Source of the DNA: an uncultured Flavobacteriales bacterium
GTDB lineage: Bacteria; Bacteroidota; Bacteroidia; Flavobacteriales_D; Parvicellaceae
Direction of reading: 5' to 3'
NCBI GenBank assembly: GCA_913030835.1
Contig: CAJWDP010000008.1
Location: 1 to 64,000, forward strand
Length of the DNA stretch: 64,000 nucleotides
A program made the position numbers and the translations under genes. The notes under the pieces are model-generated. The model was not told the DNA's origin and made no database searches. It saw only the letters and a program-made list of their open reading frames with translations. This document shows positions 19,065 through 50,552 of the stretch, one piece after another. Position 1 is the first letter of the stretch. Every line of letters begins with the position of its first letter.

Positions 19065-20522
19065 ATGAAAAAGTATCTGATTATACTACCATTTATTGTG
19101 GGCAATTTTCTTACCGGAATTGCTCAAAATGAAATAGATGCTTTGCGTTATTCGTTAACCAACTACGAAGGAACCGCAAGATTCATGGCCATGGGCGGAG
19201 CTTTCGGAGCAATAGGCGGCGATTTATCTGCCATAGGTGTAAACCCAGCCTCAATGGGTAGGTTTAGTAAAAATGAATTCTCTTTTTCTCTAGGAGGATC
19301 TTTTTCAGACACTAGAACAATGTTATATAACAATAGTTCAACCGCATCAAGAAGCAACATCAATATTCCAAACGTCGGTTTCGTTGGCACACATAACTTC
19401 AAACATCGGGATAAAATTGGATGGCAAAGCGTTCAATTTGGAATATCCTATAATCGCCTGAATAACTTCAATGAAAACATTACGATCCAAGGAAATACAC
19501 CGAATTCTTATTCGCTTGTATTTGCAGATTGGGCACAAGGAACAATAGCAGACAACTTAATTAGCACAAATAACTATGACAGCTACCTTGCATATGAAAC
19601 TTGGCTAATTGACCCAAATCCATCTGGAAGCACTGATTATGTTTCAACAATTCGAGGAGGCACAAACGCATTGAAAACCATTTCAAGGAAAGGCAATATG
19701 TCTTCTACAGAACTAGCATTGAGCGGAAATTATATGAACAAACTGTACATTGGAGGCAGTTTGGGCATACCAACTCTAAGGTTCGACGAAACAGCTAGTC
19801 ATTTCGAAAGCGTCACGAACGATACGGTAAATCAACTGGATAATTTTACCTATACACAGACATTGAAAACGACTGGAACCGGATTCAATCTAAAGCTAGG
19901 GTTTGTTGCCCTTCCTATGGACTGGTTTCGATTTGGAGCTTCAATTCAAACCCCTACCGCATTCAGAATGTCGGACAGATGGCAAAACGCTATGGTGACT
20001 AATTTTGACGACGGAGCCAGATACGAAGCAACCAGTGATCCGGGGTCGTATGTTTACAAATTAAGAACGCCGTTGAAAGTAACGGGAAGCGCTGCATTTG
20101 TGCTATTCAAAAAAGCTGTTTTCTCTATCGACTACGAGCTACTTGACTATTCTAAATCAAGACTAGGTTCCACATCGTTTTCTACTTCCCCCTATAATTT
20201 CAATACGGAGAATGAAACGATTGGGTCGATTTACAACAGGTCTTCATCTATTCGAATAGGAGCAGAATTAAAAGTGGCCAAGCCACTATTGATCCGAGGC
20301 GGAGCTCAGTATCGTCAAAATCCATTAATCGAAGCTGAGTCTGATCAACTTTCTTATTCGCTTGGTTTTGGTTACAGAGTAAATAAATTCTACTTAGATC
20401 TAGCCTACGTGCTTACCACCACTACAGAAAAGTACTTCCTTTACGATCCTGTGCTTATCGAGGGCTCAGATATCAACAAAAGTCTGAGCAGAGCAGTCGT
20501 TACATTAGGTTTTAGATACTAG
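19065..20522 (+). CDS. OmpP1/FadL-family outer-membrane transporter
   Basis: The 485-residue protein has a signal peptide (cleavage near GIAQ, residue 21) and the FadL/TodX N-terminal pattern ARFMAMGGAFGAIGGDLSAIGVNP. A beta-barrel with many aromatic-ended strands follows, ending in VVTLGFRY with a terminal aromatic residue. Family members import long-chain fatty acids or other hydrophobic compounds across the outer membrane. It lies behind the low-complexity lipoprotein in one transcript and is closed by a terminator. Confidence 0.9.
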   Translation: MKKYLIILPFIVGNFLTGIAQNEIDALRYSLTNYEGTARFMAMGGAFGAIGGDLSAIGVNPASMGRFSKNEFSFSLGGSFSDTRTMLYNNSSTASRSNINIPNVGFVGTHNFKHRDKIGWQSVQFGISYNRLNNFNENITIQGNTPNSYSLVFADWAQGTIADNLISTNNYDSYLAYETWLIDPNPSGSTDYVSTIRGGTNALKTISRKGNMSSTELALSGNYMNKLYIGGSLGIPTLRFDETASHFESVTNDTVNQLDNFTYTQTLKTTGTGFNLKLGFVALPMDWFRFGASIQTPTAFRMSDRWQNAMVTNFDDGARYEATSDPGSYVYKLRTPLKVTGSAAFVLFKKAVFSIDYELLDYSKSRLGSTSFSTSPYNFNTENETIGSIYNRSSSIRIGAELKVAKPLLIRGGAQYRQNPLIEAESDQLSYSLGFGYRVNKFYLDLAYVLTTTTEKYFLYDPVLIEGSDINKSLSRAVVTLGFRY

Positions 20523-24396: not shown

Positions 24397-25851
24397 ATGG
24401 AGTCCGTATACGATAAATATGAAGCAGTAATAGGATTAGAGGTTCATACGCAGCTTGTTACCAAAAGCAAAGCGTATTGTTCCGACATTAACGAATTTGG
24501 ATCAAGACCAAATACCAATATTGGTCCTGTTTCTCTTGGTTTACCTGGAACGTTACCCAAAGCCAATACCAACACCATAAATTTTGCCATACGATTAGGA
24601 CTAGCAATTGGGGCTCGGATAACAACCAAGATGCATTATGATCGGAAGAATTATTTTTATCCTGACCTTCCTAAGGGATACCAAATTACACAGGACCGCA
24701 CACCAATTTGCACCGGTGGTTATGTATCAATTAAAACTGACGATGGTTCACCGAAGGATGTTGCCATAACCAGAATTCATATGGAGGAGGATGCCGGCAA
24801 GAGCATACACGACCAAGACATTTACGATACGTTGGTTGATCTGAATAGAGCTGGCGTGCCTTTGCTGGAAATCGTTTCTGAACCCGAAATCAAGTCATCC
24901 AAAGAAGCTTACAACTATTTGCAGGAGGTGAGAAAGTTGGTCAGGTACTTGGATATTTGTGATGGCAACCTGGAGGAAGGAAGCATGCGATGCGACGCCA
25001 ATATTTCGGTTATGTTAAAGGGGTCAACTGAATTTGGTGAAAGGTGTGAAGTAAAAAACATGAACTCTATGCGGAATGTTCAAAGGGCCATTGATCACGA
25101 AATCAAAAGACAGATAGACATCATTGAAAGTGGTGGAAGCATTTCAATGCAAACACGCAGTTTTGATGCAGTGTCCGGAACAACTTCATTGATGCGGAGC
25201 AAGGAAGAGGCGCATGACTATCGCTATTTTCCTGAGCCTGACTTGCAACCGTTGGAAATTTCTCAGGAGTATATTTCTTCGATTGAAAAAAAGATGCCTC
25301 CTTTACCCAAGTCATTATTTGAAAAATACACGACACAATTCGGATTGTCTGAATACGATGCGTTGAACTTAACAGAATCGAAAGACATTGCGTTGTTCTT
25401 TGAGGGGATTTCCGAGCTCACAAAGAATTACAAGGCAGCGGCAAATTGGGTAATGGGTTCTATTAAATCGTATTTGAATCAAAAGGCTATTGATATTACA
25501 GAATTTCCAATTGCACCGAAAAAAATCGTTGAAATCATAGAATTGGTTGATAACGGTAAGATTGTCAACTCTACTGCAGAGCAACGCCTATTTCCAGAAA
25601 TGATCCGAAATCCTGAAAAATCTGCTGAGGAACTTTCGGAAGCCAATGGATGGCTGATACAAACGGATTCAAGTGAATTGACAGAATTAATTAACTCCAT
25701 TCTCAACGAAAACCCAAATGAGTTGGAACGTCTAAAAAGTGGAGAAAAAAAACTCATTGGCTTTTTTATGGGGCAAATCATGAAAGCATCAAGGGGATCA
25801 GCCAATCCTAAAGAAGTAACAAAAATTATAAGCGAATTAATAGAACAATGA
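24397..25851 (+). CDS. gatB: Asp/Glu-tRNA(Asn/Gln) amidotransferase subunit B
   Basis: The 484-residue protein has the GatB cradle domain beginning YEAVIGLEVHTQL and the CDANISV block. It also has the helical C-terminal YqeY-like tail domain (KIVEIIELVDNGKI through GFFMGQIMKASRG). With GatA and GatC it converts Glu-tRNA-Gln and Asp-tRNA-Asn into the amide forms. Those partner genes are not in the window. It begins 2 bases after the PNP stop, and its own stop overlaps the next start as ATGA. Confidence 0.97.
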   Translation: MESVYDKYEAVIGLEVHTQLVTKSKAYCSDINEFGSRPNTNIGPVSLGLPGTLPKANTNTINFAIRLGLAIGARITTKMHYDRKNYFYPDLPKGYQITQDRTPICTGGYVSIKTDDGSPKDVAITRIHMEEDAGKSIHDQDIYDTLVDLNRAGVPLLEIVSEPEIKSSKEAYNYLQEVRKLVRYLDICDGNLEEGSMRCDANISVMLKGSTEFGERCEVKNMNSMRNVQRAIDHEIKRQIDIIESGGSISMQTRSFDAVSGTTSLMRSKEEAHDYRYFPEPDLQPLEISQEYISSIEKKMPPLPKSLFEKYTTQFGLSEYDALNLTESKDIALFFEGISELTKNYKAAANWVMGSIKSYLNQKAIDITEFPIAPKKIVEIIELVDNGKIVNSTAEQRLFPEMIRNPEKSAEELSEANGWLIQTDSSELTELINSILNENPNELERLKSGEKKLIGFFMGQIMKASRGSANPKEVTKIISELIEQ

Positions 25852-27062
25852 AGTATTTGACCAGCATATTTATTCTCCTATTGTTTTTTGGCTGCAGTCA
25901 AGAACAAGAATCGATTGAAAGTCAGAATGAAGCAAATGAAGGGCTCACATCAGCAATTGAGAAACCGGATACTGAAATTCGAAATGAAGGATCGACGATT
26001 ATTTCTGGAAAAATCAGCAACCCGAAAAACATCCCCCTTAGTATTAATTTTATTGGTCCTGCAGGAATGCAAAACATGGGTGCGATTGATGTTGATTCAA
26101 GCGGCAATTTTAATCATGAACTTACTATCGATGATATCGGCTTTTACAGTCTTGCCTACAATGCTGAAAATTCAATTTTACTCTTTATTGAACCCGGTTC
26201 CTCGACAGTAATAACTGCCGATGGGAATCAATTATTTGATAGCTATAGTCTGACGGAATCAACAAAGGATTCTAAACTGATCAAAGAATATTTCGAGGAA
26301 TACAATCGTTTTGCAAAAGAGCAACAAGATTTAAATCTCCAAATGAGCGCATTGGACTATTCTGCAGATGACGCAAGAACAGAACTGATAGCAAAAAGTG
26401 AAGCGATTCGAGCTGAATTTAATCAGTATAAACGGTCGTTCATTGATGCCAATGAAGAAATGCCTATGCTTGCTTTTTTACTCGATCACTTGAATCCAAA
26501 AACAGAGCTTGACTACATAAAAAAGATTGGTGAATCCGCCAAGAAATCACTTTTTGGAACCCATTACAATGATATGGTTCAGCGCGTAGTGCAGGCCAGA
26601 ATACAAAGCCAAAATCCACCTCCTACCCCCAGCGGACAAATAGCAGTAGGACAAATGGCACCTGAAATTGCATTTCCCAACCCGAATGGCGAGATCATTA
26701 AATTGTCTTCATTACGCGGCAAATTAGTTCTTCTTGATTTTTGGGCTTCTTGGTGCAGACCCTGCAGAATGGAAAACCCAAACGTGGTAAGAATGTATAA
26801 TAAATACAAAGACAAGGGGTTTGACATCTATAGCTTTTCATTGGACCAAGATCCTGCCCGCTGGAAAAATGCAATTCAACAAGACGGGCTAGTTTGGCCT
26901 AACCATGCGAGCGACCTTAAAGGATGGAACACAGCAACAATTCCGTTATATGGATTCAAAGGGATTCCATTTACTGTTCTAATTGACAAAGACGGCAAGA
27001 TTCTTGAGACCAATTTGCGCGGGCCCGCACTTGAAAATAAACTTAAATCTTTATTAGGATGA
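25848..27062 (+). CDS. TlpA-like thioredoxin-fold lipoprotein with WCRPC active site
   Basis: The 404-residue protein has a lipobox at LLLFFGC (Cys16). A DUF4369-like beta domain follows (about residues 45-130), then a helical linker (about 135-260) and a C-terminal AhpC/TSA-type thioredoxin domain. The active site is WCRPC (Cys303, Cys306). Such proteins reduce disulfides in the periplasm while anchored to a membrane. It overlaps gatB by 4 bases and the next gene, a close paralogue, by 4 bases. Confidence 0.9.
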   Translation: MKYLTSIFILLLFFGCSQEQESIESQNEANEGLTSAIEKPDTEIRNEGSTIISGKISNPKNIPLSINFIGPAGMQNMGAIDVDSSGNFNHELTIDDIGFYSLAYNAENSILLFIEPGSSTVITADGNQLFDSYSLTESTKDSKLIKEYFEEYNRFAKEQQDLNLQMSALDYSADDARTELIAKSEAIRAEFNQYKRSFIDANEEMPMLAFLLDHLNPKTELDYIKKIGESAKKSLFGTHYNDMVQRVVQARIQSQNPPPTPSGQIAVGQMAPEIAFPNPNGEIIKLSSLRGKLVLLDFWASWCRPCRMENPNVVRMYNKYKDKGFDIYSFSLDQDPARWKNAIQQDGLVWPNHASDLKGWNTATIPLYGFKGIPFTVLIDKDGKILETNLRGPALENKLKSLLG

Positions 27063-28207
27063 TGAAATTAAGCCACATAGCAGCTACTTTAATGATGATC
27101 TTTTGTATCGGATTTTCTTATGCTGAGGACAATGTATTTATTAAAGGTCAAATTCAGAATGCTGAAGGCAAGACGATTTATATTGACTATTTCGAGAACG
27201 GTGCTCTAGTGACCATCGACTCGTGTAACATCAACAAGAAAGGAAAATTTGAAATCTCAATCGAATTAAAGGAGCCAGATTTCTATCGACTGCGTTTTGT
27301 GAAAAATGATTTCATTCTACTTGTTTTAGCCAAAAATGAAAAGATCGAAATCACTGCAGATGCCAATGAATTGAATCAATCGTATTCAATTACTGGAAGT
27401 CCGGCATCAAGTGAGATCCAAGAGTTCCTTGGGATTTTCAACCAATACAATAATGAAGTGCTCGCAATTAGGGAAAAACAAAATGACCCAAAAGTTCCTA
27501 TGGAAGAAAAGAAAGAACTTTTTAAACAGGAACAAATTGCAAACAATGAATACATTTCATCAAGAAATAAGTTTATACAAGAAAACTGCACAAGCTTATC
27601 CGTTCTTGCCACATTGTCGCAATTGGATGATAATAAAGATCTTGCATTGATCAAACAAATAACTGAAGGCATAGGTAAAACACATCCTACCTCTAAATAC
27701 TACACCGAGCTGGTCAAAAAGGTAAAACAGATTGAATTGCAACAAAAGGCAACAGCGGAACGTGCTGAGCAAGTAGAACCGGTTCCTATCGGATCAGTAG
27801 CTCCAGAATTGAACTTCCCAGACCCATTGGGTAGAGTAATTACATTAGAATCGTTAAGAGGCAAATATGTTTTACTGGACTTCTGGGCATCTTGGTGTGG
27901 ACCATGTCGTAGAGAAAATCCTAATGTAGTACGAGCCTACAATAAATATAAAGATGCAGGATTTACTGTATACAGCGTTTCATTGGATAAAGACAAGAAC
28001 AGATGGTTACAGGCAATCAAAGGAGATGGATTGGTGTGGCCCAATCATGTTTCAGACTTGAAACAATGGCGTTCGGAAGCAGTTCGCTTGTATGGATTTA
28101 GAGGAATACCTCACACCATTCTTCTGGATAAGGAAGGGAAAGTAATTCAAAAAAATCTGCGTGGGGCTGCTCTTGAGGTCAAATTGGAAGAGCTCCTGGG
28201 ATTCTAA
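27059..28207 (+). CDS. Periplasmic TlpA-like thioredoxin-fold protein with WCGPC active site
   Basis: The 382-residue paralogue of the preceding gene has a Sec signal peptide ending near SYAED without a lipobox, so it should be soluble in the periplasm. Domain order is the same: DUF4369-like region, helical linker, then a thioredoxin domain with the canonical WCGPC motif (Cys280, Cys283). The two genes overlap by 4 bases and share long stretches such as NPNVVRxYNKYKD and DGLVWPNH. This indicates a tandem duplication followed by divergence in anchoring and active site. Confidence 0.9.
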   Translation: MMKLSHIAATLMMIFCIGFSYAEDNVFIKGQIQNAEGKTIYIDYFENGALVTIDSCNINKKGKFEISIELKEPDFYRLRFVKNDFILLVLAKNEKIEITADANELNQSYSITGSPASSEIQEFLGIFNQYNNEVLAIREKQNDPKVPMEEKKELFKQEQIANNEYISSRNKFIQENCTSLSVLATLSQLDDNKDLALIKQITEGIGKTHPTSKYYTELVKKVKQIELQQKATAERAEQVEPVPIGSVAPELNFPDPLGRVITLESLRGKYVLLDFWASWCGPCRRENPNVVRAYNKYKDAGFTVYSVSLDKDKNRWLQAIKGDGLVWPNHVSDLKQWRSEAVRLYGFRGIPHTILLDKEGKVIQKNLRGAALEVKLEELLGF

Positions 28208-28231: not shown

Positions 28232-31200
28232 ATGCATCTAGTCTCAAACATAATGGCTCATAGTTTTGCCTGGACTCTTTTAACTTTCTTCACTGTTACT
28301 CTCCATGGTCAGAGTTATTTTCAGCAACGTGTCAATCACAAAATACAAGTAAGACTAGACGACAAAAGACACGTACTTTCAGGGTATGAAGAAATTGAAT
28401 ACCACAATAATTCTCCAATTGCACTGGATACGATCTACTTTCATTTGTGGCCCAATGCATACAACTCAACATTTAGCGCATTAGGGAGACAAAATGTGGA
28501 GAACAATGATCTTAGCTTGCATTTTTCAGATTCATTGGACAAGGGTTTCATTGACTCACTTCAATTCTCCGTTAACGGTACTACAATCCAACTGGACTAC
28601 ATGAACAACCATCAGGACATTGGGTATATTGTATTAAAGAAGCCCGTACAACCTGGAAATAGCATCACAATTTCTACTCCATTTCGGGTTAAAATCCCCG
28701 ATGCAGAATTCTCTCGACTTGGTCATGTTGGTGAATCCTATATGATTACTCAATGGTTTCCCAAACCTGCGGTATTCGATCGAGATGGATGGCATCCCAT
28801 GCCCTATCTCAATCAAGGTGAATTTTATTCTGAATTTGGATCCTATGAAGTGAGTATTCAAGTGCCTAAAAATTATGTTGTAGGAGCTACAGGTGATCTG
28901 CAAAACGACGAGGAGATCGTATTTCTCAATCAGCTGGACAAATCCACCAGAAAAAAAATAGAAATGAACCACACTACTGATGTGGATTATGAGTCAGACG
29001 ATTACACGTTTCCTGTATCAGACAATGAATACAAAACACTGAGGTACAAACAAGACAATATTCACGATTTTGCCTGGTTCGCAGACAAAAGATTCAATGT
29101 ATTAAAAAGCAAAGTAGAATTGCCGAATACAAGCGACTCCGTTACTACTTGGGCAATGTTTACCGATAAAAATTTTGATCTATGGACAGAGGCTCCCGTC
29201 TATTTAGATAGCGCGATCTATTACTACTCATTGTGGAATGGAAACTACCCATACCAGCAAGTTACCGCAGTGGATGGAACCATTGCCGCCGGAGGAGGAA
29301 TGGAATATCCCAATGTAACCGTCATTGGGTCTTCGAGCACAGCATTCGAGCTTGAGCAAGTAATTGTTCATGAGGTAGGGCATAATTGGTTTTATGGCAT
29401 CTTAGGATCCAATGAAAGGGATCATCCCTGGATGGATGAAGGGTTAAATTCATTTAATGATAACCGATACATCGAAACGAAATATCGTTCCGCAGATTTA
29501 AATTTATTCATAGGAGGTGTGAATGAAAAAATTCTCAATCAATTTGGATTGAACGATCTACGGTATAGGTCAATAAACGAGCTGGGCTATTTGTTGAATG
29601 CCAGAAGAAATCTAGATCAGCCGATTGAGCAAAAATCTCAGGATTATACATCAACAAATTATGGGGCTATCGTTTATGGAAAAACAGCGCTTGTATTTAA
29701 TTACCTCAAGTCCTACTTAGGAGATTCCCTGTTTGACCAATGCATGCAGCAATATTTCGAAGATTGGAAGTTTAAGCACCCTGGACCTTCCGATATAAGA
29801 AATGTGTTTGAAAAAACATCCGGTAAGGATCTAACTTGGTTCTTTGAAGAAATAATTGGCACTACCAAAAAGATCGATTATGCGTTTTCAGGCATCAAAA
29901 AAGAAAACGGTAAAACCTATTTAAAAGTTAAGAATAAAGGCGGAATTGCTTCTCCATACAGCCTTACCTTACTCAAAGATTCAACTACAATCAAAACCAC
30001 ATGGATCGATGAAGAATCTGCACCTTTTGGATTGTCACAACACCGTCAGCTCATCGAAATGGATTTAACCGAAGCAGACCGGGTCAGAATTGATTATGCC
30101 ATGGCTATTCCTGAAATTGACCGCACCAATAATACTATTCGAACCAAGGGTCTTTTCAAAACGTCCAGGAAAATAAAGCTGCAGTGGTTGATGGGATTAG
30201 AATCACCTCAGCGAAACACACTTTATTACACGCCCATTATGGGTTGGAACAAGTATGACGGATTTATGGCGGGTCTTTCACTATACAATCACACGTTCCC
30301 GGAAAAAAGATTTGAATATACTTTAAATCCAATGTTTGGTTTCCGTTCATTGCAACCTGTAGGAATTGCTGATGCCCATTACCACATTTATCCTCATGAA
30401 AAAAGTTTTATTCAGAGAATATCAATTGGTTCAGAATTCTCCTCTTTTCATCTGGCAAATGAAGACGCTGACCAAGGCGTTTTTCAAAAACTAAACCCAT
30501 ACATAGAATTTGATTTTCAAAAAGCAAAAAGAAGATCAAAATGGAAACATCGGCTTAAGGTGGATTACAATTTTGTGAAGGAAATCATTCCCGAAATCGA
30601 CGAGGTACCCGATTGGACCAATATACAAGCGTTAAGGGCCCAATATAGACTAACCAACTCACAGGTTCTAAAGCCGTTTTCAATTCAGTTGAGCTATGAA
30701 CAAGGAAGCGTAAGCAATGTAGTTCAACCATTCGGAAGCCTTCAAAACTATTTGAAAGCAAGCTTGGAGGCAAATTGGAGAATCAATTACAATTATCAAC
30801 TCGATGGAATTGATCTTAGAATTTTTGCGGGAAATTTCTTTAAGAACAATACAACTTCATCCGACTTCAATTGGCAGATTGACGGTCAAAATGGTACTCA
30901 GGATTATTTGTACGATCAAATTTTCCTTGGCAGATTACAAACACATCCGGATTTGTTAGCTCAGCAATTAATTGAAAATCACGGAAACTTTAAAATACCC
31001 AGCAGGCGTGCGTCAAGTACCTGGTTGGCTTCGGGTAATGTAAAGATCGAATTACCATTGCCTATTCTAGGTATTTACGGCGATGGTGCAATTCTGCCCG
31101 TTTATATTGTAAATAAAGGTGAGTTTGAAAACCAATATTTATTTGATGCGGGGCTACAGCTATCCATCAAAAAAGATTTGTTCGACATCTATATCCCTAT

Positions 31201-31327
31201 CTTTATGCATAGCGATTTAAAAAGTGAAATGGAATTTCAAGATATATCCGTTTTACAGCGAATTAGATTCACACTCAACTTAAAAGTGTTGAATCCGTTT
31301 AAGATGATTAAACAAATAGAACCTTAA
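28232..31327 (+). CDS. M1-family metallopeptidase fused to a predicted C-terminal beta-barrel
   Basis: The 1031-residue protein has a signal peptide (cleavage near LHGQ), an M1-like N-terminal beta domain and a gluzincin catalytic domain. The substrate motif is GGMEYP and the zinc site is HEVGH (380-384) with Glu403 in WMDEG. From about residue 640 to the end the sequence changes to alternating hydrophobic/polar strands with aromatic ends and no visible enzyme motif. It looks like an outer-membrane barrel of about 12-16 strands. This would place the peptidase at the cell surface or periplasmic face. Met8 at 28253 is an alternative start. Confidence 0.85.
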   Translation: MHLVSNIMAHSFAWTLLTFFTVTLHGQSYFQQRVNHKIQVRLDDKRHVLSGYEEIEYHNNSPIALDTIYFHLWPNAYNSTFSALGRQNVENNDLSLHFSDSLDKGFIDSLQFSVNGTTIQLDYMNNHQDIGYIVLKKPVQPGNSITISTPFRVKIPDAEFSRLGHVGESYMITQWFPKPAVFDRDGWHPMPYLNQGEFYSEFGSYEVSIQVPKNYVVGATGDLQNDEEIVFLNQLDKSTRKKIEMNHTTDVDYESDDYTFPVSDNEYKTLRYKQDNIHDFAWFADKRFNVLKSKVELPNTSDSVTTWAMFTDKNFDLWTEAPVYLDSAIYYYSLWNGNYPYQQVTAVDGTIAAGGGMEYPNVTVIGSSSTAFELEQVIVHEVGHNWFYGILGSNERDHPWMDEGLNSFNDNRYIETKYRSADLNLFIGGVNEKILNQFGLNDLRYRSINELGYLLNARRNLDQPIEQKSQDYTSTNYGAIVYGKTALVFNYLKSYLGDSLFDQCMQQYFEDWKFKHPGPSDIRNVFEKTSGKDLTWFFEEIIGTTKKIDYAFSGIKKENGKTYLKVKNKGGIASPYSLTLLKDSTTIKTTWIDEESAPFGLSQHRQLIEMDLTEADRVRIDYAMAIPEIDRTNNTIRTKGLFKTSRKIKLQWLMGLESPQRNTLYYTPIMGWNKYDGFMAGLSLYNHTFPEKRFEYTLNPMFGFRSLQPVGIADAHYHIYPHEKSFIQRISIGSEFSSFHLANEDADQGVFQKLNPYIEFDFQKAKRRSKWKHRLKVDYNFVKEIIPEIDEVPDWTNIQALRAQYRLTNSQVLKPFSIQLSYEQGSVSNVVQPFGSLQNYLKASLEANWRINYNYQLDGIDLRIFAGNFFKNNTTSSDFNWQIDGQNGTQDYLYDQIFLGRLQTHPDLLAQQLIENHGNFKIPSRRASSTWLASGNVKIELPLPILGIYGDGAILPVYIVNKGEFENQYLFDAGLQLSIKKDLFDIYIPIFMHSDLKSEMEFQDISVLQRIRFTLNLKVLNPFKMIKQIEP

Positions 31328-31336
31328 ATTTGATCC

Positions 31337-32101
31337 GTGTCCGCTGAGCGAAAAAACATATATTTTGCCTCCGACTTCCATTTGGGTGTTCCAAATGCTG
31401 AATCAAGTTTAGAACGAGAAAAAAAGCTGGTCAAATGGCTCGAATCCGTTTCTGAAGATGCCCTGGAAATCCATCTGATGGGAGACCTTTTTGATTTTTG
31501 GTTTGAATACAAACGTGTTGTTCCGCGTGGATTTGTGCGAGTATTGGGTAAAATTGCCGAACTGAGTGATCGAGGTATCTCGATTAAATTGTATACCGGG
31601 AATCATGACATGTGGATTTTTGATTATTTACCAAACGAACTAGGAGTAGAAGTGATTCGGGGACCTATTATCAGAACATTCCACGGCAAGAAATTCTTTC
31701 TAGGTCATGGAGACGGATTGGGCCCCGGTGATCATGGTTATAAATTCATAAAACGCATTTTTTCCTTTTCATTTTTTCAGTGGGTTTTTGCACGGTTTCA
31801 TCCAAACTTCAGTATTGGTGTTGCCAATTACTTTAGTAAAAAGAGTAGAAAAAGCAACAGGAACAGCAAGAAGGAACCGGATCATTTCCTGGGCGAGGAA
31901 AGAGAATTTCTAGTACAATTTTGTAAGGAAAAATTAAAGGATGAGCATTTTGACTACTTTGTCTTTGGTCATCGTCATCTGCTCATCGACCACACCCTAG
32001 GTGAAAATTCAAGGTATATCAATTTAGGGGATTGGTATTCTCAATGCAACTATGCTCTTTTTGACGGGTCTTCACTCAGCGTTAAAGTTTTCGAAATTTG
32101 A
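31337..32101 (+). CDS. lpxH: UDP-2,3-diacylglucosamine diphosphatase (LpxH-like)
   Basis: The 254-residue calcineurin-like phosphoesterase has the full metal-site set: DFHLG (residues 13-17), GDLFDFWFEY, GNHDMW, GHGDGLGPGD and GHRH. It would hydrolyse UDP-diacylglucosamine to lipid X on the inner membrane, step 4 of lipid A synthesis. The start is GTG, 10 bases after the M1 gene stop. It is last in the run led by lpxK, another lipid A gene. LpxH and LpxH2 variants are hard to separate by eye. Confidence 0.87.
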   Translation: MSAERKNIYFASDFHLGVPNAESSLEREKKLVKWLESVSEDALEIHLMGDLFDFWFEYKRVVPRGFVRVLGKIAELSDRGISIKLYTGNHDMWIFDYLPNELGVEVIRGPIIRTFHGKKFFLGHGDGLGPGDHGYKFIKRIFSFSFFQWVFARFHPNFSIGVANYFSKKSRKSNRNSKKEPDHFLGEEREFLVQFCKEKLKDEHFDYFVFGHRHLLIDHTLGENSRYINLGDWYSQCNYALFDGSSLSVKVFEI

Positions 32102-33182: not shown

Positions 33183-36131
33183 TTATTTCAACTTAATGAA
33201 TCTAGTTACGTCGTTCCGTGAACCAGCCGTTAGTTTGACAACGTACGTCCCTTTTCCGGACCCACTCATATCTAGGTCCATTCTATGTTTGCCCATTGGC
33301 ATATCAGACCTGTTGATCGTTTTGATCAACTTTCCGTTTATAGAATAAACGCTTAGCGCAATGTCCGATCTGTAATCCAACTCAAAAGTTACACTACCCA
33401 CTTCATCCATAGGATTCGGGTATACGCTTAAATTCGTATTTGACTCCGCATCCGCAAAATCCAAATGATCTACATCACCATCACTAAGTACAGTTCCTGA
33501 TGTCCAAACCCCTCTACCGTGCGTTCCAAGATAAATTTCTCCTGCTTTTGGAGACTCTTGCCACCCTCGCTGTTGCTGTCGGATTGCGAATACCGGTATC
33601 GGACCTGTTTCATTAATACATTGCGTCCAATTCGCTCCCCCATCACTTGATGCCCACGGACCAAAATCAGAGGCGCATACCAATTTTTGAGGATCTCTGT
33701 AATCAATGATCACATCGAGAATTGCCATACTGGAAGGAATATTTCCTTGAATCAACGTGGAAACAAGTGTAGCTGAAGCTCCGGATGCACAATCATCTAA
33801 CTCCACCAAACTGCCCCCACCGGTTTGTGATCGAGCTATAATTAAGCGCTCCGGATCATTTTTATCAATCGCAATTCCGTTAACCGGGCGTGATGAGTTG
33901 TAAATTCTATCCACCTCCAATTTTGGAACATCAGAAGCATGGTACACGCTGTCAAGACCCCTCACTCTCCACAATCCATCGTATGTTCCTACATACATAA
34001 TGTTTCCATCCCATGAGAATTCAAAACACAATGCTGGACTATTGAACGAAGAGCTATCCGTAACCGACCACCATTCCGGTGTTTTCCCGAATCTTAGGGC
34101 GTCCCTAGTTACCATGACCTGATAATTCGTTGCGCTATTAGCTAAGGTCGCCATCAACGATTGTACAGGATCTTGCAATTGAATCGTGTCATAAGGATAA
34201 TCCAATTTGATCGAATCTGTTCCCATCCAAACCGTATCACTGGTACCTGGGTGAAGCGCATAAAAGTTACCACCTACTGACCCTTGAGACAAGAGGGTAT
34301 CTGTATGATACAACGTCGAAGTTGTGGTGTAAGTCAACACATTTTCCGGTACGCTAGAATTATAGGAAGAGCTATAATACGTAATGGTTGTTCCCGAAGG
34401 TATCGTAGAGTCCGAAGGAAAATATTCAATAAACTCCTGACTATCCATATCATTCGGATCCTCAAACAAACGAAGTGGTGTGTGAAAAACCCCACAAGAT
34501 TGACCGATCTGGCCAGCGCAAGGCACTTCAACAGATTGCCAGTTGTTACCTCTGTCCTCAGACCTGGATATCGAGCTATTGTAGACCGTGGAGAACATTA
34601 CATCTGGATCGTAGTGTGAAATATCACAGTCAAAACCGTCTCCACCGGTTACTTCTCTAAACTGCAGGGCAGAACTTAATGAATAGTCATTGTAAAGGGT
34701 ACCATTGTCTTGCGCTCCAGCCATTACAGCCCCAAACTTATCGTGAGCGACACTGTAAAATTGCGTGACATTGTATCCGTTGTTCAAAGGACTATTAAAT
34801 GTTCCTATTCTTGTACCTACACCACCGTCATTTCCATAAAAATACATTCCTTGGCTGTTCCACTTCATCTCATGATTATCAGCATGAATATAAACTGGTG
34901 AGAATGGGCTAGCAGACCACAACGATATTTGCTCCCAACCACCCCAGGCAGGAGAAACCGTTGTATCTTGTGTCCATAGGTATTGATCTATACCTCCTAA
35001 GAAGCATTGATGAGGTTGTCCCGCAACATACGATATGATCTGGTCATAATTTCCTTGAGTACTTAACGTTGTGGAAAAAGGCGTGAACGTAGATGAACCA
35101 CCTGGTCCAATATTTGTCCACGATGCCCCGTGATCTTCAGAAATACTTACACTATGAAGCGCTCCTCCACCAGTTGATGCAGAGACGTAAATGTTGTACT
35201 TACCATTACTGTTCGGAACATCAGTTACACTGCTTTCTGCTCTACCCACTGCTGTTGGTAATCCAAGGGTAATTTGTGTGAACGTCGCACCAAAGTCTTC
35301 AGAGACATAGTATCGGAAAGATCCACCTACTCTCGAACAAATAAACACGACAGAACCGTCACCGGAAGCTTTAATGTCGTAACCATTACCTATGACCACT
35401 CCTCCTATTGTAGAAGCTCCGGTCGACTTGTCCGGTGATACCATACATGTTGTACCACCAATGTAAATTTTATCATTCTGCGAAGGGTCTCTCCACAATT
35501 GCATCACCGATCCTGATGTTCCTGGCAAATGGCTCCAATTAGCACCACCGTCTTCCGAATAGTAAACCCCATTCGCTCCTGATTGTGTTCCACTTCCTCC
35601 AGAGGTAACTCCTCCTTCGAATTGATCTCCTCCTGTCGCTACATAAACAATTCCTGCATCAGTTGTCTCAATAGACGAGATGCACATAATTCCCACCTGA
35701 GCGTCCCATTCATCTACTCTATTCCAGGATTGAGCCATGTCTGTTGATTTGAATAACCCACCTGAAACAGAACCAGCATACATGATGCTGTCATTTGATC
35801 TATCAATGCCAATACCTCGAGTTCTTCCTCCGATATTATCCGGACCTCTTTCAACAAACTCTAGCGCAAGAGACTTGTTTAAATTGAATTGATTTCTTTT
35901 CATCGCCTCCCAGGAGTTCTTCCTATCCTGAGGCTCAATCTTTCCGGTTTTGGAATTTGCAAGCAACAACTCGTAATGCTTATATCTTTCCTGATGATTT
36001 GAGTATGCTTGTTTTTCAGGCGCTAATCTAGGTTGGTAATCCTTGACCTTAGTTCCTTCTTCATTCTTCAATAAAAGACCCCCTGAAACGGCAATCAATG
36101 CCAACGTTCCAAAAAATAATATCTTCTTCAT
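33183..36131 (-). CDS. Secreted BNR/VPS10-like repeat protein with type IX sorting domain
   Basis: The 982-residue protein starts with a signal peptide (MKKILFFGTLALIAVSGG). It contains many Asp-box (BNR) turns of the SxDxGxxW type, for example SEDGGANWSH, SEDHGASWTN, SEDRGNNWQS and SSDGGANWTQ. This predicts stacked beta-propellers as in sortilin/VPS10-like glycan-binding or hydrolase proteins. The last 80 residues form a type IX secretion sorting domain beginning at YPNPMDE and ending in TRFIKLK. It should be exported to the cell surface or medium. It stands alone between a clear promoter and a strong terminator. Confidence 0.9.
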   Translation of the reverse strand: MKKILFFGTLALIAVSGGLLLKNEEGTKVKDYQPRLAPEKQAYSNHQERYKHYELLLANSKTGKIEPQDRKNSWEAMKRNQFNLNKSLALEFVERGPDNIGGRTRGIGIDRSNDSIMYAGSVSGGLFKSTDMAQSWNRVDEWDAQVGIMCISSIETTDAGIVYVATGGDQFEGGVTSGGSGTQSGANGVYYSEDGGANWSHLPGTSGSVMQLWRDPSQNDKIYIGGTTCMVSPDKSTGASTIGGVVIGNGYDIKASGDGSVVFICSRVGGSFRYYVSEDFGATFTQITLGLPTAVGRAESSVTDVPNSNGKYNIYVSASTGGGALHSVSISEDHGASWTNIGPGGSSTFTPFSTTLSTQGNYDQIISYVAGQPHQCFLGGIDQYLWTQDTTVSPAWGGWEQISLWSASPFSPVYIHADNHEMKWNSQGMYFYGNDGGVGTRIGTFNSPLNNGYNVTQFYSVAHDKFGAVMAGAQDNGTLYNDYSLSSALQFREVTGGDGFDCDISHYDPDVMFSTVYNSSISRSEDRGNNWQSVEVPCAGQIGQSCGVFHTPLRLFEDPNDMDSQEFIEYFPSDSTIPSGTTITYYSSSYNSSVPENVLTYTTTSTLYHTDTLLSQGSVGGNFYALHPGTSDTVWMGTDSIKLDYPYDTIQLQDPVQSLMATLANSATNYQVMVTRDALRFGKTPEWWSVTDSSSFNSPALCFEFSWDGNIMYVGTYDGLWRVRGLDSVYHASDVPKLEVDRIYNSSRPVNGIAIDKNDPERLIIARSQTGGGSLVELDDCASGASATLVSTLIQGNIPSSMAILDVIIDYRDPQKLVCASDFGPWASSDGGANWTQCINETGPIPVFAIRQQQRGWQESPKAGEIYLGTHGRGVWTSGTVLSDGDVDHLDFADAESNTNLSVYPNPMDEVGSVTFELDYRSDIALSVYSINGKLIKTINRSDMPMGKHRMDLDMSGSGKGTYVVKLTAGSRNDVTRFIKLK

Positions 36132-39634: not shown

Positions 39635-41359
39635 TTGAAATATCTGGTGGTCATATCACTCGTAATCCTACATGTGCATTCTGGGCTCGCGCAAATAAAG
39701 GTGACCTACCGGGGCATTGACCACTCCTTATTAAGGTCCCTGAGCGCTCCTGCGATCGTAACTGATTCTGCATCTGCAATAAGGGAAATTAGAAAAATTG
39801 AATCTCAATTGATTCAGCGAGGATATTTAACTGCTAATATCGATGAGTTTAAATTCGACAAGCAATCCCTTGATGTTTTCATTAGTCTGGGGCAACAATA
39901 CCGTTGGGCACAAATATTACCGGGCAATACTGATGATGAAGCCCTTATTAAATCAGGGTATCGGTCGAAAATACTGGAAAAAAAAACCATCACACCCAAA
40001 GGTCTGGCTATGCTGCACAGCGCATTAGTAACACACTACGAAAACAATGGATATCCATTCGCTTCCAGCTCACTTCGAAAAATTGATTTTACCGATTCAA
40101 GCACCATTTCAGCTGAATTGCATATTGAAAAAGGACCTTTAATTACAATTGACTCTATAACTATTGTAGGTGACGCCAAGATTTCCGAACTATATATTTC
40201 GAACTATATCGATATAAAAGAGGGGGACATCTATGACCAATCTAAACTTACAATGATGGAAAACAGATTGAAGGAACTGCCATTTGTAAAAATAAAAAAG
40301 CCCTCTATCGTCGGATTTACCAACAATTACACCAAGCTGTATCTTTTTTTGGATCATGTAAATTCCAGTCAGTTCAATGGATTGCTTGGTATTCTTCCTG
40401 ACAAAGCAACCGGAAAAGTTACTGTGACTGGTGATGTGAAAGTTGCGCTAAAAAACGCTTTCAGAAAGGGCGAATTGATTTCATTGAACTGGAGAAAACT
40501 GCAATCTCTAACCCAAGATCTAGATGTAAACGTAAATTACCCCTATCTATTCCAGAGTCAGTTCGGTGTAAGTGGGCAATTAAAAGTGTTCAAAAAAGAC
40601 ACCTCCTATCTCGAATTGCATCAAAGAATTGGCATACAATACCTGTTAAGCGGAGGCAATTTTCTAATGGTCTATTTCAATAATTACAGCAGCAGCCTGA
40701 TCAACGCATCGAAATACGCTTCAGCCACAGTTCTTCCAGAGTTTGCCGACGTAAAATTTAAACAGTACGGGATTTCTTTTTTAAAGTCAAAGCTAGACTA
40801 CCGGTTAAATCCTCGCAAAGGCTTCAAAGCAAGCGGTTCGGCTGCTGCGGGGAAAAAGGACATCACAAAAAACCCTGAGCTAGATGAGGCGCTTTATGAA
40901 AGTATAAACCTGACGTCCTTGCAATTTAAACTCCAGGCCGACCTCTCACTTTTCCTTCCAATAGCGAAAAGAAGTATCATAGCATTAAAAGCAAAATCTG
41001 GCTATATCATCAACGAGAATATGTTTATGAATGAATTGTTTCGTTTGGGCGGGCTTCGAACCCTCCGTGGGTTTGACGAAGAGAGCATTAATGCATCCAT
41101 GTATGCAATAGGATCCATCGAGTACCGATTTCTTTTGGAAAGAAATTCAAACATCTACTTGTTTGGCGATTATGCTTACTACGAACGCACCATACCCAAC
41201 GAGCATCTGAGCGACAGACCTTTCTCCTTTGGGGCCGGAATTTCTTTCCAAACCAAACCTGGTATTTTTAGCATCAACTATGCATTAGGTAGCCAAAAAG
41301 ACAACCCTATTTTGATCCGAGCTGCCAAAATTCATTTCGGGTTTGTGAATTACTTTTAA
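39635..41359 (+). CDS. Omp85-superfamily (BamA/TamA-like) outer-membrane protein
   Basis: The 574-residue protein uses a TTG start and has a signal peptide (cleavage near GLAQ). It has two to three POTRA-like domains (about residues 25-225; GPLITIDSITIVGDAKISE is typical) and a 16-strand-like barrel. The conserved LRGFDEESI loop near residue 480 corresponds to the VRGF/Y motif of Omp85 proteins. Such proteins insert or export polypeptides across the outer membrane. It is shorter than true BamA and more like a TamA-type or patatin-less accessory. It is followed by an L,D-transpeptidase gene. Confidence 0.88.
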   Translation: MKYLVVISLVILHVHSGLAQIKVTYRGIDHSLLRSLSAPAIVTDSASAIREIRKIESQLIQRGYLTANIDEFKFDKQSLDVFISLGQQYRWAQILPGNTDDEALIKSGYRSKILEKKTITPKGLAMLHSALVTHYENNGYPFASSSLRKIDFTDSSTISAELHIEKGPLITIDSITIVGDAKISELYISNYIDIKEGDIYDQSKLTMMENRLKELPFVKIKKPSIVGFTNNYTKLYLFLDHVNSSQFNGLLGILPDKATGKVTVTGDVKVALKNAFRKGELISLNWRKLQSLTQDLDVNVNYPYLFQSQFGVSGQLKVFKKDTSYLELHQRIGIQYLLSGGNFLMVYFNNYSSSLINASKYASATVLPEFADVKFKQYGISFLKSKLDYRLNPRKGFKASGSAAAGKKDITKNPELDEALYESINLTSLQFKLQADLSLFLPIAKRSIIALKAKSGYIINENMFMNELFRLGGLRTLRGFDEESINASMYAIGSIEYRFLLERNSNIYLFGDYAYYERTIPNEHLSDRPFSFGAGISFQTKPGIFSINYALGSQKDNPILIRAAKIHFGFVNYF

Positions 41360-48070: not shown

Positions 48071-48102
48071 TTGAATATGCGGCGATTAATTCAGTACTTT
48101 GG
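48071..48102 (+). promoter_or_regulatory. Candidate promoter of the secreted M1 peptidase
   Basis: TTG (48071-48073) is followed 21 bases later by TACTTTGG (48095-48102), which resembles the TAnnTTTG box with one base fewer between the halves. It lies about 18 bases before the ATG at 48120. Confidence 0.35.
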
Positions 48103-48119
48103 AAATCAAATCCGTGGTA

Positions 48120-50552
48120 ATGAAAAAATTCTTTTTGTTGTTATTCGTCGCATTTGCATCTGTAGCAAATTGCCAACATTCTCACCTTTGCAAACATGGA
48201 CAGCTTCAAAATAATTTAGTTTGGTCTCCAAAAAGCAGCGAAAACGACAATAAACGGAGTGATACAATTAACATAATAAACTACTCCGTTTACCTCGATT
48301 TTTCTAACGCCAGTGCACAAGAGATTCAAGGAAATTGTGCTATCACTTTTCACCCAAAACAAAACAACATCTCTCATATTAATCTGGATCTTTTGGAGTT
48401 GAGCATAGACTCAATTACACAGAATGACACGTTAATAACATACTCTTACAACGATACACTTATTCAAGCAAGCTTGCTGTCAGTCCTAAATACTATCGAT
48501 ACAGCAACGGTGGTAGTGCACTACCATGGGTCGCCTCAACAAGATGCATCCGGTTGGGGTGGGTTTTATTTTCAGGGAAGTTATGCATACAATCTCGGTG
48601 TTGGCTTCTCTGCTGACCCGCACAATTATGGCAGAGTTTGGCACCCTTGCTTCGACAATTTCAAAGAACGAGCCACTTACAATTTTGAGATATTGACTAC
48701 CAATGGAAACACATCGTACTGTAACGGCCAGCTAATCAGCGACCTAGTTTCAGGAGATACTTTGATCCGCTCGTGGGAAATTACCTCGCCTATTCCCTCC
48801 TACTTAGCAAATGTCGCTGTAGGACCGTATACACATGCCCGGATGGATCACATCAGCGCTCTTTCAGGTTTAACCATTCCTGTTTGGTTGATCTCTTCTC
48901 CGTCAGACACCTCATCATTTACCAATGCTTTTCAAAACCTCGACGACGCGATAGACATTTATGAGTCTGAATTTGGCCTCTACAAATGGAGCAAAGTGGG
49001 TTTTGTGGCCGTCCCTTTCAGCTCCGGGGCAATGGAACACTCTACGAACATCTGTTACCCAAAGGCAGTATTGGGTTCAGGTATTGCTTACGAAACACTC
49101 ATGGCTCATGAATTGTCTCATCAGTGGTGGGGAAACTACGTCACCACCGAATCTGAAAATGAAATGTGGATCAACGAGGGGATGGCAGTGTACTGCGAAC
49201 ACCTTTTTCTAGAAGGGAAATATGGTTATACCACCTACATAAACAATGTGAAAAGCAATCACAAAAACGTGTTACTGAATGCCCATATAAACGATGATGG
49301 CCATTACGCACTGGCGAATGTGCCGCATTTGCATACATACGGAGATCATTCCTATAAAAAGGGCGCAGATGTGATGCACACATTACGGTCAGTCATGGGA
49401 GATTCCAACTTTTTTGCTGGATTGAAATCGATCCAGCTCAATCGAGCCCATAGAACAATTAATTCATTAGAATTCAGAGATGAACTGAATGCTTCTTCAA
49501 CGGTCGATGTCACAGATTTTTTTAATGATTGGATCATGAATCCCGGCTTTCCACAATTCTCAATAGACTCATTTTCCGTTAGTCCAAATGGGTCCGACTT
49601 CGATGTTACCGTATATACGAAACAACGGTTACGCGCTGCTCCAAGCTATTATAACAGTGTTCCTTTTCAAATTACATTGCTGGACGACAACTGGGCCAAA
49701 GCATCGAAGTCCATCCTGCTCAGTGGTATAGTGGATACCGTCACGATCACAATACCATTTCATCCTACCGTTGCCTTTCTAAACGAAAACGATAAAATCA
49801 ACCAGGCCACAACCGGAGAAAACAGTGTTTTTTATTCTGTTTCCAATTTGGACCTGAATTACTCTGAAATACGATTATTTGTTGATCAACTGGATGATTC
49901 TGTATTTCTGCGGTCGGAGCACAACTATGTTGCTCCGGACGGATTCATCGATCCAAGTGGTTGGAATGCTCAATACAAGCTGAGCGAAGAGCGGTATTGG
50001 ACCATTCATGGAATTTTCGGCAACAACTTTCGAGGTAAAATGCGGGTATTCTACAAAGGGCAATCACCCGGAGCATTGGATTACGAACTGTTCAATGATG
50101 GAGGGACAGGAATTTTTCATGAGGACAGTATTCGTCTATTCTATAGAAGTGGAGCTGGAGAGGAATGGACTGTTTTACCCAACTGCACGGTTCAACCGGC
50201 GGGAAATCCTCTCGATGGATATGGGTACATAAATACAGATACGCTTTTGCCCGGTGACTACACATTCGGGTGGATATCTGGTCCTGTTGGCCTAAACGAT
50301 CAGATTGATAAGAAAGAATACCGTATATATCCAAATCCTACCAAAAACGTCTTATGGATTGACCTTAGAGATTTCGAAAGCTCTAATTACACACTCACAA
50401 TCAACGACTTGAACGGAAAAATGGTACAATCGGAGTCCAGCTGTTCATCCATTTCATTACTCGATTTGAGCCGTATCAAACCCGGAGTATACATTCTGTC
50501 TGTAATGGATCAAAGCAAATTTATTCTGTCTGAAAAGATAATTGTTCATTGA
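48120..50552 (+). CDS. Secreted M1 aminopeptidase with type IX sorting domain
   Basis: From the ATG at 48120 the protein is 810 residues. An earlier in-frame codon at 48099 would put 7 odd residues before a clean signal peptide (MKKFFLLLFVAFASVANC). The M1 catalytic domain shows SSGAMEHS and the zinc site HELSH (330-334) with Glu353 in WINEG. The last 75 residues are a type A type IX sorting domain, starting YRIYPNPTKN and ending SEKIIVH. It should digest peptides outside the cell. Confidence 0.93.
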   Translation: MKKFFLLLFVAFASVANCQHSHLCKHGQLQNNLVWSPKSSENDNKRSDTINIINYSVYLDFSNASAQEIQGNCAITFHPKQNNISHINLDLLELSIDSITQNDTLITYSYNDTLIQASLLSVLNTIDTATVVVHYHGSPQQDASGWGGFYFQGSYAYNLGVGFSADPHNYGRVWHPCFDNFKERATYNFEILTTNGNTSYCNGQLISDLVSGDTLIRSWEITSPIPSYLANVAVGPYTHARMDHISALSGLTIPVWLISSPSDTSSFTNAFQNLDDAIDIYESEFGLYKWSKVGFVAVPFSSGAMEHSTNICYPKAVLGSGIAYETLMAHELSHQWWGNYVTTESENEMWINEGMAVYCEHLFLEGKYGYTTYINNVKSNHKNVLLNAHINDDGHYALANVPHLHTYGDHSYKKGADVMHTLRSVMGDSNFFAGLKSIQLNRAHRTINSLEFRDELNASSTVDVTDFFNDWIMNPGFPQFSIDSFSVSPNGSDFDVTVYTKQRLRAAPSYYNSVPFQITLLDDNWAKASKSILLSGIVDTVTITIPFHPTVAFLNENDKINQATTGENSVFYSVSNLDLNYSEIRLFVDQLDDSVFLRSEHNYVAPDGFIDPSGWNAQYKLSEERYWTIHGIFGNNFRGKMRVFYKGQSPGALDYELFNDGGTGIFHEDSIRLFYRSGAGEEWTVLPNCTVQPAGNPLDGYGYINTDTLLPGDYTFGWISGPVGLNDQIDKKEYRIYPNPTKNVLWIDLRDFESSNYTLTINDLNGKMVQSESSCSSISLLDLSRIKPGVYILSVMDQSKFILSEKIIVH

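Follow-up and report, generated by a model that had tools for sequence, protein, structure and literature searches.

An M1 metallopeptidase fused to a predicted Omp85-like outer-membrane barrel in Bacteroidia

We analyzed a 64,000-nucleotide stretch of DNA from an uncultured Flavobacteriales bacterium (the window; contig CAJWDP010000008.1) and, within it, a 1031-residue open reading frame (ORF) at 28232..31327 (+) that joins an M1 metallopeptidase to a C-terminal domain predicted to be an outer-membrane beta-barrel. Our results confirm this fusion and support in part the first interpretation given to it, in a preliminary description of the DNA that regarded the protein as a self-anchored peptidase. 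The M1 site, the barrel-type meander of strands, a wide and mostly single-copy occurrence, recurrent neighboring genes and, in one clade, a lost zinc site were computed directly. The model that we favor, and to which we give about an even chance, is that the protein would be a periplasm-facing M1 aminopeptidase anchored by an Omp85-like barrel that has an envelope role of its own.

An M1 peptidase joined to a barrel-type domain

The preliminary description had called the N-terminal part a complete gluzincin peptidase with an intact zinc site, and this holds. Pfam places Peptidase_M1 (PF01433) at residues 333-539 (29228..29848, +) with E 1.9e-18 and 67.3 bits against a cut-off of 27.7, and the protein has the features by which M1 peptidases are recognized: HExxH with a downstream Glu, a catalytic Tyr and a GxMEN-like motif. 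In an alignment of 73 full-length relatives, the zinc motif HEVGH (residues 380-384; 29369..29383, +) has H380, E381 and H384 conserved in 71 members each, and the third zinc ligand, E403 (29438..29440, +), is found in 72. The putative catalytic residue Y482 (29675..29677, +), whose role we take to be that of the catalytic Tyr of M1 peptidases, is present in 71. GGMEY (residues 355-359; 29294..29308, +), presumably the GxMEN-like motif in name and role, has E358 in 71/73 and Y359 in 73/73. The exceptions at the active site are two degenerate members, L231 and L241, the former retaining E403.

Reading of the sequence suggests a putative Sec-type signal at residues 1-27 (28232..28312, +), without a lipoprotein cysteine. 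The boundary of the catalytic module could be refined to about residue 540; a beta-rich domain follows at about 548-636 (29873..30136, +), its strand content read from the poor structure model alone, and predicted strands run from 648 to 1018. The fusion shares the beta-rich domain with short M1 paralogues, about 630 residues long, one of which is L004 from the same genome (631 residues; 34% identity over residues 26-587). These short Bacteroidota aminopeptidases resemble the fusion in their GGMEY-type and HExxH motifs but have no barrel: they end near residue 635, shortly past an NN motif that corresponds to residues 633-634 of the fusion, and the barrel-bearing extra domain starts directly there. 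The barrel can also adjoin the catalytic module directly, as three long relatives (L019-L021) show, which have no beta-rich domain in front of it. Two others, L326 (genome G080) and L327 (G138), consist of the catalytic module alone, at 533 and 539 residues, without beta domain or barrel, and L328 (G037) is a broken copy of the fusion gene spread over several reading frames. The source genome has six M1 matches, and the barrel profile matches one gene there, the fusion. The contrast that had been drawn with a second M1 gene using type IX secretion is sound: the gene at 48099-50552 carries a Por_Secre_tail domain, whereas the fusion, searched with Pfam and NCBIfam at thresholds up to E 1, gives no match to it.

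C-terminal to Peptidase_M1, Pfam finds no family over cut-off in the fusion. Nevertheless, alternation, loop asymmetry and residue coupling over 159 homologues indicate that the C-terminal domain (strands s1-s17, residues 648-1018; 30173..31285, +) is a meander of about 16 up-and-down antiparallel strands, and a probable outer-membrane barrel rather than a beta-sandwich. Column hydrophobicity in the 159 aligned barrels alternates in 17 stretches between residues 648 and 1018. In a mean-field coupling analysis of these barrels (about 130-138 effective sequences; 388 of 796 columns), antiparallel ladders averaged 13.9 in the 16 adjacent strand pairs versus 6.1 in non-adjacent pairs (rank test p 1.4e-9), and the s12-s13 pair, which spans a loop of 60 residues, scored 20.8 antiparallel versus 7.5 parallel. 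Counting s2 as strand 1, the loops of this protein are 5, 5, 11, 16, 14, 60, 13 and 14 residues long after odd strands and 5, 7, 7, 7, 6, 3 and 3 after even ones. Outer-membrane barrels are recognized by up-and-down antiparallel strands that are joined by short turns at one end and long loops at the other, and, judged by these lengths, the asymmetry is that of outer-membrane barrels with both ends in the periplasm. The barrel of the preliminary description is thus upheld, and a beta-sandwich, the outcome it had named as contrary, was examined by coupling and is not supported.

Several points weigh against a membrane barrel. The strand limits were set by eye on the same alignment that was used for coupling, and parallel ladders are also raised for adjacent pairs (9.8 versus 5.8). 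Three adjacent pairs are weakly coupled (s10-s11, 7.2; s1-s2, 8.4; s7-s8, 8.9), and coupling did not detect closure of the first strand on the last (s1-s17, 5.6; s2-s17, 5.0). The structure prediction proposed in the preliminary description was run and gave AlphaFold models of low confidence, unusable as structures: the single sequence reached a predicted local distance difference test score (pLDDT) of 28, and the barrel with four relatives a pLDDT of 40 and a predicted template modeling score of 0.42. Pfam has no outer-membrane protein (OMP) family for the 19 barrel members scanned, and the barrel profile matched no OMP in the PDB, its two matches (E 0.094 and 0.56) being taken as chance. A Foldseek search with the five-sequence model gave no match at E 0.001. 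With no confident model, no visible closure and no known OMP family in Pfam or the PDB, the C-terminal part could be a soluble beta-rich domain rather than a membrane barrel. We consider this very unlikely, given some 16 consecutive antiparallel hairpins with short and long loops in alternation and the profile match to Omp85 described below. Foldseek points the same way: of 325 matches at E up to 10, the best 50 consist almost wholly of outer-membrane barrels, drawn from many families, with exceptions at ranks 15 and 40. The Foldseek result is only suggestive and speaks for a barrel-like fold, not for a particular barrel.

Distribution and the relatives without a zinc site

The fusion is a widespread, usually single-copy architecture that is not peculiar to the source genome. 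With the full protein as query and a threshold of E 0.001, 152 of 198 genomes from the phylum gave a match, in most cases owing to the M1 part. The barrel profile, at E 1e-5, matched 207 of 295 Bacteroidia-class genomes (177 of 253 among those of good quality). Because the same C-terminal domain recurs in so many genomes, the observation is more than chance. One match was found in 197 of the 207 and two in the other 10, where at least some of the doubles are one gene matched in two pieces. Sixty loci were fetched with their flanks, and in 60/60 the barrel and an M1-type N-terminal part lie in one ORF, of 927-1108 residues, with HExxH-E in 58. A further 110 loci, some overlapping these, gave 107 ORFs of more than 800 residues within the stretch, all with HExxH-E (107/107). 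Thirty loci of weaker-matching genomes had HExxH in 26; one of the others was the gene of L231 again, and three were fragments short of the M1 part. The survey of domain architecture that had been suggested finds the M1-barrel fusion to be real, but not special to this genome.

That the barrel has a job of its own is suggested by relatives in which the zinc site is lost and the barrel persists, better conserved than the rest. Two families, f6 and f7, have one homologue in 20 of the 20 genomes searched, in ORFs of 937-975 residues, and HExxH is absent from all 20. As a guess, these families may be Flavobacteriaceae- and Weeksellaceae-like. The search behind these numbers covered 28 genomes, of which seven had no match and one (G049, family f9) a fragment only; none of these is counted among the 20. 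At the aligned positions, H380, E381, E358 and E403 are each kept in 0/20 (with Asp in place of E403 in 18), and H384 in 1/20. A Tyr lies one column from Y482 in 18 of the 20, so that loss of Y482 is not established. In four of these homologues Pfam gave at most a sub-threshold M1 match, and neither Pfam nor NCBIfam gave a match over cut-off. Even so, their N-terminal part is matched to the active M1 part with E 5.2e-58, and comparison of their barrel with the active one gives E 8.1e-74.

In this zinc-site-dead clade the two halves change places in conservation, the barrel being the better-kept one. Mean pairwise identity among the 20 dead rows is 0.387 in the peptidase part and 0.470 in the barrel, versus 0.478 and 0.295 among 59 active rows; the dead set comprises two families only, and it is the contrast of ratios that counts, not the absolute identities. 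On a quick tree of 89 rows, built from barrel columns only (with 29 of 86 inner branches open and the place of the window protein unsure), the 21 dead members need two changes, where shuffling gives an expected 19.0. L241 was left out of this tree as the same gene as L339. The two losses are that of the f6/f7 set and, separately, that of L231, in which HExxH, E358 and Y482 are gone, E403 is kept, and GatB and a TlpA-like gene are still nearby. The f7 loci have surroundings of their own, with a LOG-like gene upstream in 10/10 and an NrdA-like gene downstream in 9/10 (two query loci included), both names being our assumption from the look of the sequences. At two f6 loci, L360 and L361, the neighbors are unlike those of f7, and an ORF judged by eye to be orotate phosphoribosyltransferase-like lies upstream.

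Resemblance to Omp85 and to known enzyme-barrel fusions

We compared a profile of 179 fusion barrels (104 used after the hhalign filter) with one of 28 Omp85 barrels from Bacteroidia-class genomes, pooled from BamA-like, TamL-like and shorter proteins that had been sorted by length. The two match at 91% probability and E 9.9e-7, while PorP/SprF, TonB-receptor-type, FadL-type and OMP_b-brl_2 control barrels reach E 0.017 or worse against the 179-barrel profile and a reversed profile E 0.07 or worse. Other versions of the profile gave E 6e-5 (the nearest control then being FadL, at 0.014) and 1.8e-5 against the pooled set. Rows left out of these comparisons were Omp85 L044, L045, L046, L087 and L091, TonB-type L143, OMP_b-brl_2 L181 and 10 of 18 weak FadL-type loci. 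The match falls in the C-terminal half, where a [FY]-x-D stretch of the family (YGD here, residues 949-951, 31076..31084, +; D951 in 140/179) is aligned with F-x-D-x-G of the Omp85 profile. A long conserved loop (residues 871-930; 30842..31021, +) is followed by five strands, s13-s17, which is the position of L6 in Omp85; five strands follow L6 in Omp85 barrels. Within this loop lies DYLYDQIFLGR (residues 891-901; 30902..30934, +), in which 174 of the 179 aligned barrels keep D891 and 175 keep R901. The family has DYxYDxxFxGR where Omp85 L6 has VRGF/Y. Among the 17 candidate strands, s2-s17 would make 16, as in Omp85 barrels.

Other results argue against placing the barrel in Omp85. None of 19 members matches PF01103 (Omp85) at E 1, and single Omp85 subsets match less well than the pool (BamA, E 0.11; short Omp85, 0.0079; TamL-like, 6.6e-4). 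Unlike barrel families also reach about 1e-6 with one another (PorP-FadL, 1.2e-6; PorP-OMP_b-brl_2, 3.6e-6), and because differently named families attain such values, E 9.9e-7 is no proof of membership. Conservation of VRGF/Y is lacking: only 8 of 179 barrels contain [VIL]RG[FYW] at any position, yet this is a weak test, since the Omp85 set, too, has it in only 10 of its 28 barrels. Pfam finds no POTRA family up to E 1, the M1 domains extending to about residue 636 and the barrel following directly. Some Omp85 subfamilies do lack POTRA domains. We therefore use the term Omp85-like for the barrel and stop short of calling its membership proven, its homology to Omp85 being suggested by the profile evidence. 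As a separate matter, the window also holds a 574-residue Omp85 protein (39635-41359; PF01103, 49.9 bits at 40454-41302) and a FadL/Toluene_X-type barrel protein (19065-20522; PF03349, 30.5 bits at 19713-20429).

By analogy, the nearest parallel to the M1-barrel fusion is PlpD of Pseudomonas aeruginosa. Like PlpD, the fusion has an N-terminal enzyme and, as predicted, a C-terminal barrel of some 16 strands, the last five of which come after a long conserved loop; in contrast, the enzyme here is an M1 metallopeptidase, and neither POTRA nor a conserved VRGF/Y is seen. The part of Heinz and Lithgow 2014 that was accessible (PMC4104836) describes ten Omp85 subfamilies and names no M1 type among them. 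It includes a 'Metallo' subfamily (PF00149 plus Omp85 barrel), similar in that a metallo-domain other than POTRA precedes the barrel, but PF00149 is a calcineurin-like phosphoesterase. Of the single Omp85 subsets the TamL-like one, assigned by length, matches best, whereas TamL, the TamA-like Omp85 of Bacteroidota, is a lipoprotein according to the accessible text of PMC12045153, and the fusion has an M1 domain and no lipoprotein cysteine. The BAM complex of Flavobacterium johnsoniae is comparable as a case of phylum-specific parts in outer-membrane biogenesis, but its subunits, BamA, D, G (FadL family), H, M and P in the accessible portion of PMC12611786, include no M1-barrel fusion, and the idea that the fusion is a subunit of the Flavobacterium BAM complex was rejected. 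Among the titles and abstract openings listed in searches of open-license PMC literature there was no M1-Omp85 or M1-barrel fusion, which is no proof of novelty.

Gene neighborhood and possible roles

Gene order was compared at 60 of the 207 matching genomes, picked among the better-scoring matches listed and spread over 37 families. In the window, GatB (24397..25851, +) is followed by a tandem pair of TlpA/ResA-like thioredoxins at 25848-28207. The first of these (25848..27062, +) has a sub-threshold DUF4369 match, and the second (27059..28207, +), with DUF4369, stops 24 bases short of the fusion gene. An LpxH-like UDP-2,3-diacylglucosamine diphosphatase gene (31337..32101, +) starts 9 bases after the fusion; it is the genome's best LpxH match, at 71 bits, under the curated cut-off of 190. 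An LpxH-like gene lies downstream in 34/60 loci and is adjacent in 31 (20 of the 37 families). A TlpA-like gene lies upstream in 27/60 and is adjacent in 24 (17 families), one ORF being counted per locus (27 ORFs, 27 loci), and a GatB relative is near the fusion in 19/60. Among the 14 largest neighbor clusters, no other gene appears repeatedly on the same strand at more than 5 loci. Set against this association, the LpxH, TlpA and GatB neighbors were not found in the 13 loci L326-L338, nor in L007-L010 and L012, several of these stretches ending near the gene.

What the barrel does can be read in several ways. It might be a plain anchor, a barrel of any family that merely tethers a digestive aminopeptidase to the outer membrane in place of type IX secretion or a lipid anchor. 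The barrel does look like an addition, because short M1 paralogues of the same type exist without it, L004 of the source genome among them, and in active members it is less conserved than the peptidase. However, all 20 f6/f7 genomes keep it without a zinc site, as the better-conserved part; the loop Arg R901 is almost invariant; and the profile similarity is to Omp85, not to the four other barrel families. We regard a plain anchor as unlikely. Of the self-anchored peptidase first proposed, the combination of M1 domain and barrel stands, but anchoring alone leaves the conservation of barrel and loop in zinc-site-dead lineages unexplained. Alternatively, an Omp85-like barrel could bring the M1 domain to the cell surface, in a type Vd-like manner, for digestion of external peptides. 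The enzyme-then-barrel order is like that of patatin-like PlpD, initially described, in the accessible part of PMC4104836, as surface-delivering. Yet PlpD's own enzyme domain was later found to remain periplasmic (PMC11116518, accessible part), and a cell-surface enzyme appears less likely here because the loop lengths place the barrel's N-terminus on the periplasmic side; we rate surface display as distinctly improbable. As for an uptake pore, in which the barrel would import peptides and the enzyme would trim them at its periplasmic mouth, geometry alone speaks for it, an aminopeptidase at the mouth of a barrel; the preliminary description had suggested that the barrel could pass products of the enzyme. 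A long conserved loop sits, however, where L6 plugs Omp85 barrels (plugging as given for BamA in the accessible portion of PMC12611786), the LpxH-like, TlpA-like and GatB neighbors are not nutrient uptake genes, and the barrel is retained without the zinc site, all of which makes a pore very unlikely in our view.

We favor instead the model of a periplasm-facing M1 aminopeptidase on an Omp85-like barrel with its own envelope role. In this model, the N-terminal, catalytic and third, beta-rich domains of the peptidase, ending near residue 636, would be joined to a barrel of some 16 strands that is a distant relative of Omp85. After Sec export, BAM would presumably insert the C-terminal part into the outer membrane, while the peptidase would remain in the periplasm beside the barrel mouth and trim peptides or envelope proteins at their N-termini. 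A separate job, most likely in outer-membrane assembly or homeostasis, would fall to the barrel with its long conserved loop. We infer the Omp85 homology, the periplasmic orientation, the aminopeptidase substrates and the envelope role.

More tentatively, we can envision, though we hold it somewhat doubtful, that M1-Omp85 proteins are an unrecognized Omp85 subfamily, near-core in the Bacteroidia envelope and linked to lipid A synthesis (LpxH) through gene order. The M1 domain would then replace POTRA as a periplasmic substrate-binding platform on which catalysis is dispensable, with at least two conversions to a pseudopeptidase (one of them in the line shared by f6 and f7), while the barrel and loop would do essential work in outer-membrane assembly or in lipopolysaccharide (LPS) or protein homeostasis. 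If the favored model is right, Bacteroidota have a widespread outer-membrane protein joining an M1 peptidase with an Omp85-like barrel, one that the Pfam barrel models miss in the 19 members scanned; the zinc-site-dead homologues would be natural tests of the role of the barrel without proteolysis, and the LpxH neighborhood would lead to a direct hypothesis of outer-membrane or LPS homeostasis.

Two minor observations may be added. A viral-contig record (L242) contains a short stretch that is 71% identical to residues 139-203 of the fusion, near the start of the fetched DNA, and is possibly host DNA. Downstream in the window, on the opposite strand, 33183-36131 (-) encodes a 982-residue protein that carries a type IX sorting domain and weakly resembles F510_1955 glycosylhydrolase models.

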